From: Nonomuraea antri
Lineage (GTDB): Bacteria > Actinomycetota > Actinomycetes > Streptosporangiales > Streptosporangiaceae
Assembly (NCBI RefSeq): GCF_013283785.1
Contig: NZ_JABCPZ010000001.1
Span: 62,001 to 126,000, forward strand
Length of the DNA stretch: 64,000 nt
Direction: 5' to 3'
Shown one piece after another: positions 55,196-56,556 of the stretch. The notes below the pieces were generated by a model. That model searched no databases. It had not been told where the DNA came from and saw only the letters and a list, made by a program, of their open reading frames with translations. Position numbers and translations under genes: made by a program. Position 1 is the first letter of the stretch. The number at the start of each line of letters is the position of its first letter.

Positions 55196-55281
55196 GATTT
55201 GTTGGAACAATTGGTAGGAATGCCCGTCAAATCCGGGAAGAAGTGCTCATACTGGGAGTTACCCACTTGCAGGAGCACTCC

Positions 55282-55938
55282 ATGCGGAAGACACCCCCTC
55301 GCATGATCCAGGAGGACACGTTCCTCCAGCTCGCCGCGGTGGACTTCAGCGGCATCTACGCGGTGCACCTGGCCGCCAAGGAAGAACGGCTCAAGATGAC
55401 CAGGCTCGCGATGAGCCTGCTGTCCGGCCCCTTCCTGGCGGCGATCGCACTCAGCAGCGCCAAAGTCGTCGACCCGCAGAGCCTGACCCGGTGGGAACTC
55501 GTGCCCTGGTACCTGTTCGCCCTGGTCACCGTGTTCGGGCTGCTCAGCGTGCTGCCGTTCCTGCGGCTCATCGAAGCGGGCAACGCGCACGCCAGAACCG
55601 CCCGGGCCATCAACAACTTCCGGTTGCTCTACACCTCGAAGCTCAGGGGCCAGCTCGGCTGGAGCCCGAACCTGCCGACCGACCCCGCCTTCCCCGACAC
55701 CTACCGCCCACTGGCCTGGCCCGGGATCAACGTGATGATGCTGGGCCTGGCGAACTCCACGTACCTCACCGTGGGGATCACCGGCCTGAGCAAGCAGGCG
55801 CCGAACCCGCTCCTGCTGGTGCTCAGCACCCTGCTCGTCGCGCTCGTGCACTACGCCGTCTACTACGTGCGCTGCAACGTCACCAAGCGGCGCCGGCTCC
55901 CGCGAAGTCCCTATCACCAGCCGAACCTGGAGACCTGA
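55282..55938 (+). CDS. Four-helix membrane protein, partner of the ThyA-like gene
   Basis: 218 residues from ATG 55282, with AGGAG seven bases upstream. The N-terminal 40 residues are cytosolic (FLQLAAVDFSGIYAVHLAAK). Two hydrophobic hairpins follow: about 42-60 and 72-96, then about 148-170 and 175-198. A soluble loop (SKLRGQLGWSPNLPTDPAFP) lies between, and the tail is Arg/Lys-rich (CNVTKRRRLPRSPYHQ). The stop is directly followed by the ATG of the next gene. No family is recognised. Four-helix proteins of similar size serve as effectors in several nucleotide-signalling defence systems, but no shared motif is visible. Confidence 0.8.
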   Translation: MRKTPPRMIQEDTFLQLAAVDFSGIYAVHLAAKEERLKMTRLAMSLLSGPFLAAIALSSAKVVDPQSLTRWELVPWYLFALVTVFGLLSVLPFLRLIEAGNAHARTARAINNFRLLYTSKLRGQLGWSPNLPTDPAFPDTYRPLAWPGINVMMLGLANSTYLTVGITGLSKQAPNPLLLVLSTLLVALVHYAVYYVRCNVTKRRRLPRSPYHQPNLET

Positions 55939-56556
55939 ATGCCCGGCCCAGCGGAATGGGCGTCATGTGGGGAGGCGTGGATCTGGTTGATGCGCCATGT
56001 CTGGACGATCGGCGCGCTCGCCGACGACGACCGCGGACCCGTCATCGAGGGGCCGTCGGTGTTGTTCGAGATCAGCGAGGTGAGCCGGGACGACCCGATC
56101 ATCGAGCGCTACGGCGACGCGGACCGGCTGGAGCTGTACTGCAGGAAGTTCAGCGAGGACGAGATCGTGGCGCCGTTCAAGTACAGCTACGGCGCCAGGA
56201 TCAACGGGCAACTGCGGTGGGCGGCCGACCTGCTGCGGGCCAAGCCGTACAGCAAGAGCGCGTGGATCTCGCTCACCACTCCCGGCGAGCCGCACGACAG
56301 CGTGCCGTGCCTGGTCGGCCTGGCCTTCAGGATCAGGGACGAGGCCCTGCTCATGACCGCCACGTTCAGGTCGCAGAACGCGTTCACCAGCTATCTCAAC
56401 TACGTCCCGCTGGCCGAGGTGCACACCGCCATGGCGCGGGCGCTGAAGCTGCGGGCCGGCCCGATGCGGGTGTTCGTGGACGTGCCGCACCTGTACCTGG
56501 CCGACAGCTCCAAGGCGCTGCGCGTCATGTGGCCTTCCTCGCCCCGGCCGCCGTGA
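55939..56556 (+). CDS. Divergent thymidylate-synthase-like enzyme (pyrimidine nucleotide (hydroxy)methylase fold)
   Basis: 205 residues; the ATG follows the preceding stop without a gap, with GGAG six bases upstream. Residues about 80-190 align with the ThyA core: FKYSYGARINGQLRWAADLL, catalytic cysteine C124 in VPCLVGLAF, R144 exactly 20 residues later in TFRSQNAF (matching ThyA Cys146 and Arg166), N154, and H184-L-Y186 matching the HxY of the nucleotide site. ThyA Asp169 is replaced by N147. The protein is shorter than ThyA (about 264 residues). Phage and antibiotic-pathway relatives hydroxymethylate dCMP or CMP. Base modification is inferred. Confidence 0.75.
   Translation: MPGPAEWASCGEAWIWLMRHVWTIGALADDDRGPVIEGPSVLFEISEVSRDDPIIERYGDADRLELYCRKFSEDEIVAPFKYSYGARINGQLRWAADLLRAKPYSKSAWISLTTPGEPHDSVPCLVGLAFRIRDEALLMTATFRSQNAFTSYLNYVPLAEVHTAMARALKLRAGPMRVFVDVPHLYLADSSKALRVMWPSSPRPP

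Follow-up and report, generated by a model that had tools for sequence, protein, structure and literature searches.

Locus and Gene Layout

The window, by which we mean the whole 64,000-nucleotide stretch of Nonomuraea antri DNA that was analysed, contains two adjoining genes on its forward strand, the first for a membrane protein and the second for an enzyme related to thymidylate synthase (TS). The features on which this work is based are the following:

55196..55281, + strand: upstream region with a TTGTTGG block (in the window TTGTTGGAACAA, 55199-55210), from its sequence a probable promoter region
55282..55938, + strand: membrane protein gene, 218 aa, ATG start, TGA stop (ORF call)
55939..56556, + strand: TS-like enzyme gene, 205 aa, ATG start, TGA stop (ORF call)
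R32, Y84, K106, C124, R144, S145, N147, N154, H184, Y186: active-site positions of the 205-residue TS-fold enzyme, from alignment with TS

The zero-gap arrangement of two genes that had been noticed in an earlier, sequence-only reading of this DNA is indeed present, with both ORFs at these coordinates and 0 nt between them. The membrane gene sits within a longer open frame, and the ATG at 55282 (MRK...) is the start that is conserved among relatives. The last 32 bases of the enzyme gene (56525-56556) also belong to the end of a convergent MFS transporter gene, and in 9 of the 27 other Nonomuraea-type loci that carry the pair no such MFS gene was seen at the site.

A TTGTTGG block occurs no more than 160 bases upstream of the two genes in all 28 Nonomuraea-type loci (L050-L076 and the window), with TTGTTGGAACAA upstream in 15 of them, and the block may be part of an operator or promoter. 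In the window TTGTTGGAACAA is an inverted repeat right behind the stop codon of a polyprenyl synthase gene. An ECF-type promoter (GGAAC/T..GTC/T) was also considered. The pattern is found in 8 of 49 upstream regions, which is above chance (mean 1.9 and maximum 7 in 200 mononucleotide shuffles) and nevertheless unconvincing; its first half falls in the conserved upstream block and its second half shows no conservation.

Co-occurrence of the Two Genes

Among 297 genomes of the order the membrane gene is found in 48 and an enzyme match at E <1e-100, a cut-off chosen after the list had been inspected, in the identical 48, all of which fall in one GTDB family. The genes are adjacent and on the same strand in every case, at spacings that range from a 4 nt overlap to 117 nt. 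The count of 48 out of 297 includes shared ancestry, and the recurrence of the pairing is far above chance. The earlier expectations that the two genes would be found together in other genomes and that the enzyme has a dedicated membrane partner are thus borne out by genomes that carry both genes, always as neighbours. In a second collection of named genomes, which covers Nonomuraea, Thermoactinospora, Thermocatellispora, Spongiactinospora, Planobispora, Planomonospora, Streptosporangium, Microtetraspora, Actinoallomurus and two MAGs and shares 23 genomes with the 297-genome set, the membrane-gene match lies beside the enzyme gene at 48 of 48 loci.

In searches of 98 relatives 29 genomes gave a membrane-gene match, and the strong enzyme matches (E <1e-70) came from exactly these 29. 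At E <= 0.001 there are 34 enzyme matches, the other five being a remnant in genome G050, described below, and four weak matches (G015, G036, G054 and G056, E 3e-9 to 6e-7). With a narrower profile only the window's own genome was matched among 396 genomes of the phylum. At two loci (L112 = G923:C510 and L130 = G857:C8, equated by their coordinates) the membrane gene looks interrupted or truncated next to an intact enzyme gene, which has the look of recent decay or of sequencing error. The two genes are a real unit, and no account of the pairing was seen among the open-licence papers listed in the literature searches.

Presence and Absence of the Unit in Nonomuraea

The 54 genomes of the window's genus (Nonomuraea together with Thermoactinospora rubra) divide into 28 that carry the unit and 26 that lack it. 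The difference concerns a single chromosomal site, at which the flanking genes that were found keep the same order; all 26 absent sites were inspected, three of them on stretches that are short at contig ends and one in a genome that is 63% complete. At 25 of the 26 there is no trace of either gene, and at the remaining site, in G050, a 46-residue piece of the enzyme persists. On a tree of the flanking proteins (eight proteins and 54 rows, five of these under half filled, quick method) the distribution of the unit cannot be explained with fewer than 12 changes, and supported branches force at least 10 of them. Labels shuffled on the same tree need 18.5 changes on average, so that unit presence is also clustered by kinship. 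Both genes always move together, and the changes may be losses or regains.

The polyprenyl synthase, which had been left as a possible member of the system, does not belong to it, as it lies beside 13 of the 28 Nonomuraea units (the window included) and also at 8 of the 26 sites where the unit is missing. A role outside housekeeping, proposed at the same time, agrees with the patchy distribution in Nonomuraea and with the presence in the genome of ThyX and of two other ThyA-like genes. The latter two (PF00303; L162, G000:C277:30000-49900, and L163, G000:C11:26000-45900) each lie at most about 0.5 kb before the gene of a 415-422 aa CxxxCxxC protein (GCPLDCAYC / GCPLDCGYC) that is radical-SAM-like by eye and has no Pfam match; L163 also has phage-like genes, again by eye.

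Fold and Family of the Enzyme

Structure prediction for the enzyme yields a confident model (pLDDT 92.6, pTM 0.88) with the TS fold, in keeping with the ThyA-like character assigned to it from the sequence. In a Foldseek search against the PDB the best match by E-value is the phage dCMP hydroxylase AfhB with dCMP (9iqu, TMq 0.79). It is accompanied by the closely similar 9iqc (TMq 0.74), whose record title gives a riboflavin-dependent monooxygenase with dCMP and FAD, by the CMP 5-hydroxymethylase MilA (5jnh, 5b6d, 5jp9; TMq 0.80-0.83) and then by thymidylate synthases. Among viral structure models the best named match is the gp42 dCMP hydroxymethylase of Acinetobacter phage Acj9.

The best NCBIfam match of the enzyme is TIGR03283 (methanogen thymidylate synthase), which is alike in model length (201), with E 1.2e-11 and 44.6 bits; a homologue of the enzyme reaches E 1.6e-18 and 66.9 bits, and both stay under the model cut-off of 174.55 bits. 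PHROG thymidylate synthases match at E 5e-10, and Pfam PF00303 is unreported for the window enzyme and above cut-off in 3 of 3 homologues tested. When PDB sequences were searched with the profile, MilA came first (E 5.7e-7) and 9iqu (4e-4) did no better than ordinary TS. A comparison of the profile with single sequences, which took in RB69 ORF048c (nearly identical to 9iqc and 9iqu), E. coli ThyA and T4 dCMP hydroxymethylase and left MilA out, gave E values of 2e-7, 0.016 and 0.11, respectively. On the basis of the predicted fold and of the residues seen in the alignment the enzyme is very probably a nucleotide-modifying relative of TS; the chemistry put forward below is deduced from these.

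The Active Site

The ten active-site positions are invariant in 77 of 77 enzymes that adjoin a membrane gene, sequences that come from 54 distinct genomes, 23 of which occur in both collections. In the alignment with E. coli ThyA (NC_000913 thyA) C124 corresponds to C146, R144 to R166, S145 to S167, N154 to N177, H184/Y186 to H207/Y209, K106/S107 to R126/R127 and N147 to D169; the pairing of R32 with R21 comes from a weak N-terminal alignment. The residues singled out from the sequence beforehand stand up well, since C124 is in the place of the nucleophile, H184 and Y186 make up the HxY motif, the Cys-to-Arg distance that ends at R144 is 20 residues in both proteins, and N147, which is N in 77 of 77 partnered enzymes, replaces Asp169. 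The estimate that the enzyme is some 60 residues shorter than ThyA is correct as well (205 versus 264, a difference of 59).

Unlike ThyA, the enzyme lacks the phosphate arginines R126 and R127 contributed by the other subunit, with K106 and S107 in their places in 77 of 77 sequences, and the C-terminal region of TS is missing. The E58 segment is shortened; by eye, D52 precedes the GD pair by the corresponding distance, in the N-terminal part where the alignment is weak. The replacement of D169 by N147 and of R126/R127 by K106/S107, along with the shortened E58 segment, makes classical folate chemistry doubtful. According to PMC6400193, D169 holds the pterin in TS and Asp179 of dCMP hydroxymethylase, where all 77 partnered enzymes have N154, reads cytosine; PMC5175136 has K133 of MilA touching the ribose. 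Set against these two papers, N154 would point to a uridine-type base, S145 to deoxyribose, K106 to a sugar contact of the MilA kind and N147 to a pterin site that is altered or lost.

The Membrane Protein

The predicted structure of the 218-aa protein (pLDDT 78.8) contains four membrane-length helices, at about 44-60, 76-96, 148-168 and 176-196. Of these, three are clearly hydrophobic, the weaker one being the third helix (148-168), with a mean hydropathy of 1.03. The four-helix membrane protein of the sequence-only reading is therefore likely, short of proven: the number of helices is reproduced by the model, whereas a clearly hydrophobic character holds for three of them.

Among 31 membrane-protein sequences invariance is highest in the loop 97-147, where 21 of 51 residues never vary and where the motif A-R-A-x-N-N-F-R-L-L-Y ... 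W-x-P-N-L-P is located. The first helix is close behind (6/17), followed by the other three (4/21, 3/21 and 1/21). This loop is probably cytosolic, and the three clearly hydrophobic stretches, the weaker fourth and the charged ends and middle loop agree with a protein that has both ends inside; the conserved loop would suit contact with a cytosolic partner or a ligand. The window's protein has no family match in Pfam, NCBIfam, PADLOC or PHROG at E up to 1, and a Pfam scan of the membrane proteins gave no SLATT or other effector domain. The idea of a known fold was dropped, as Foldseek found nothing below E 0.36 when the model was compared with the PDB.

A Clade without the Membrane Gene

In genus g344, which may be Actinomadura, 55 genomes carry an enzyme homologue (E 7e-84 to 1e-49) and give no membrane-gene match at the locus or in a whole-genome search. 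The enzyme gene precedes serA in 15 of 15 mapped g344 loci, 10 of which have ilvC upstream, and the order in Actinoallomurus is ilvB-ilvH-ilvC, membrane gene, enzyme, with serA behind in L134 as well; the ilvB, ilvH, ilvC and serA assignments were confirmed by NCBIfam. The ilvC/serA site that is shared with Actinoallomurus suggests that the membrane gene was lost in g344, unless the root is inside the group. In a tree calculated from 28 of the 55 partner-less and 35 of the 77 partnered sequences, with a long outgroup branch and hence an unsure root, the partner-less clade is supported at 100/100 and its union with Actinoallomurus at 100/98.

Much of the active site has gone in these partner-less enzymes. 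K106, N154 and Y186, the equivalents of R126, N177 and Y209, are, like K81, each found in 77/77 partnered and 0/55 partner-less sequences, and Y67, K70, F71, F80, K81 and Y82 are replaced or gapped in all 55. The catalytic C124 (77/77 with partner) is kept in 27/55 and lost in 28/55, R32 decreases from 77/77 to 10/55 and Y84 from 77/77 to 29/55. Still present in each of the 55 are W94, P103, S107, W109, R131, R144, Y152, P157, L158, G174, R177, D181, P183 and D189, with H184 in 51/55 and S145 in 47/55, and position 147 has N in 39 sequences and D in the other 16. Since R144, H184 and S145 are largely retained, part of the pocket remains.

For close pairs dN/dS is 0.21 without the partner (262 pairs) versus 0.23 with it (38 pairs). 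From this value and the retained fold residues the g344 homologue looks like a pseudoenzyme under selection rather than a dying gene. In one case (G905:C1:2259949-2260552) an enzyme-like gene is split into two matches, perhaps through decay, and the better one was scored. On the tree the loss of active-site residues without the partner happened once, and the 55 genomes count as one observation. Through this single event, traced from sequence comparison, the partner-less clade would tie the membrane protein to catalysis, and that catalysis may depend on the membrane protein is in this sense supported by evolution.

A Nucleotidase Gene at Some Loci

At 16 of 25 loci outside Nonomuraea a HAD gene overlaps the 3' end of the enzyme gene, by 53-98 nt in 15 and by 4 nt in L132, as measured from the nearest start codon before the DxDGT motif, so that the HAD starts are predicted ones. 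The best family of all three proteins scanned is TIGR02254 (YjjG noncanonical pyrimidine nucleotidase), at 128-133 bits and without reaching the equivalog cut-off of 159.9. Carriers are Streptosporangium, Planobispora, Planomonospora and the two MAGs L117 and L132, of which L117 branches first in the enzyme tree (root unsure). Because the gene is present in the two MAGs, the early-branching L117 among them, as well as in three genera, the YjjG-type nucleotidase may be an old third member of the unit. As a general part of the unit it was rejected, being absent beside the Nonomuraea units (0/27 and 0/23 loci), at the 55 partner-less loci and L228, and in 9 of the 25 other loci, one of them in a Streptosporangium. 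The best nucleotidase homologue of the window's genome is 31% identical and is encoded elsewhere in that genome.

Related Enzymes in Other Contexts

In an actinobacterium of another family, L153 encodes a DUF4346 (PF14251)-fused TS that resembles the enzyme in its RSHN motif, in profile similarity (E 2e-16) and in having a HAD hydrolase gene directly behind. It differs in its 522 aa with a pterin-binding-type domain, and no such membrane protein was seen beside it. The cluster (L153:2613-16654, G668:C20) includes this protein and the HAD hydrolase along with two ParB-CE proteins, one with a calcineurin-like domain, and by eye a caspase-like/WD40-like repeat protein and ThyA-, DHFR- and HIT-like genes; it looks like a conflict or nucleotide-modification system. 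In phage Montesquieu (L235) a 516 aa TS/pyrimidine hydroxymethylase is annotated directly behind an alpha-glutamyl/putrescinyl thymine pyrophosphorylase gene.

A phage origin was considered for the enzyme and rejected, the phage proteins among the matches listed (25 of 46) being generic TS at 23-29% identity. A plasmid origin was likewise rejected; of 6 records the one close match is NZ_LT559118.1 of Nonomuraea gerenzanensis (11.85 Mb), which is filed as a plasmid in PLSDB and is a chromosome by size.

Interpretation

Our best reading is a membrane-coupled modification of a uridine-type nucleotide at C5, with folate and flavin as candidate cofactors. We hold, with somewhat more confidence than doubt, that the two proteins form one functional unit in which a TS-fold enzyme acts together with the membrane protein and alters a pyrimidine nucleoside monophosphate at C5. 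The enzyme, presumably the usual dimer, would bind a uridine-type monophosphate, with N154 reading the base as N177 does in TS and with S145 and H184/Y186 fitting a 2'-deoxyribose. C124 would then attack C6, and a group would be transferred to or installed at C5. Docking of the enzyme, or handling of its product at the membrane, may fall to the conserved loop of the membrane protein, and in Streptosporangium, Planobispora, Planomonospora and the two MAGs the YjjG-type nucleotidase of the overlapping gene would then convert the product from a nucleotide to a nucleoside.

One possibility, which we take seriously while placing it below an even chance, is a folate-dependent methylase or hydroxymethylase that acts in the manner of ThyA, MilA or T4 dCMP hydroxymethylase to make a precursor of a secondary metabolite, with the membrane protein exporting the product. 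MilA, part of mildiomycin biosynthesis according to PMC5175136, ranks first among solved relatives by sequence (E 5.7e-7) and near the top by fold, shares the nucleophile and the H-x-Y motif, and has at the R126 position the ribose-touching K133 described in that paper, to which K106 corresponds. The pterin-holding D169 position (PMC6400193) is, however, N in 77/77 enzymes, whereas the RxND of MilA retains the pterin-site Asp. S145 is not the Ala (Ala176) of MilA, N154 is not the cytosine-reading Asp, and both the C-terminal part of TS and the additional C-terminal helical domain of MilA (PMC5175136) are missing. When the shared neighbours were looked over by eye, nothing resembling a biosynthetic cluster stood out around the unit. 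Also against this reading, invariance in the membrane protein peaks in its loop (21/51), though the first helix is near (6/17).

Equally tentative is the proposal that the enzyme is a flavin-dependent C5 hydroxylase of a uridine-type nucleotide, with chemistry akin to that of AfhB / RB69 ORF048c. According to PMC13390438, the RB69-type enzyme is a 5-hydroxy-dCMP synthase of the TS superfamily. AfhB (9iqu) is the best fold match by E-value and 9iqc is titled with FAD; RB69 ORF048c is far ahead of E. coli ThyA in the profile comparison (2e-7 versus 0.016). Likenesses include a short TS-fold enzyme (238 aa in the AfhB type), RSQN where TS has RSxD, the F..xYG.RI..QL pattern and the P-C and IRD motifs. 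By contrast, the AfhB type has an Asp (QLDF) at the base-reading position occupied here by N154, H-x-F in place of H-x-Y, and a place in a phage DNA modification pathway. We know of no membrane partner of AfhB-type enzymes. What speaks for flavin amounts to one motif and a distant match, and in the profile search of PDB sequences MilA (5.7e-7) outranks 9iqu (4e-4).

That the protein is an enzyme no longer and serves its membrane partner as a nucleotide sensor or scaffold seems to us improbable. The g344 clade does keep the fold under selection with most of the active site gone; the nucleophile, for which a sensor has no need, is nonetheless invariant in 77/77 proteins encoded beside the membrane gene.

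Least probable is an antiphage or conflict unit, in which the membrane protein would act as the killing effector and the enzyme would produce or sense a modified nucleotide. In its favour, small membrane proteins are a common effector type, and a patchy distribution that changed at least 10 times at a single site within the genus resembles that of dispensable accessory systems. Against it, neither window protein has a PADLOC match up to E 1, Pfam finds neither SLATT nor any other effector domain in the membrane proteins that were scanned, PHROG gives no match for the membrane protein, the chromosomal sites are fixed among ordinary-looking genes and, in the 297-genome draw, the unit is confined to one GTDB family. 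A pattern scan of viral contigs produced 34 pattern matches, none confirmed as a relative, and the defence or conflict role raised in the sequence-only reading is accordingly unlikely.

Returning to the membrane-coupled modification of a uridine-type nucleotide, one further-reaching form of it is speculative, and we would give it rather little weight. Here the enzyme would be a flavin-dependent C5 hydroxylase of a deoxyuridine-type nucleotide, the cellular counterpart of the phage 5-hydroxy-dCMP synthase, acting only with the four-helix membrane protein. Its product, a nucleoside after the YjjG-type step, would be a signal or an exported compound, and loss of the membrane gene would have left the g344 enzyme as a conserved pseudoenzyme that took on a new role outside catalysis.

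Few enzymes of nucleotide metabolism have been studied as thoroughly as those with the TS fold, which are usually regarded as soluble. Here such an enzyme has stayed linked to a membrane protein without a known family while its presence at a single site changed at least 10 times. The g344 clade may be regarded as evolution's single knock-out, with the partner gone, much of the active site gone and the fold under purifying selection. This leads to a sharp and testable claim, that catalysis depends on the membrane protein, and it suggests that actinomycetes contain an as yet undescribed modified pyrimidine nucleotide.
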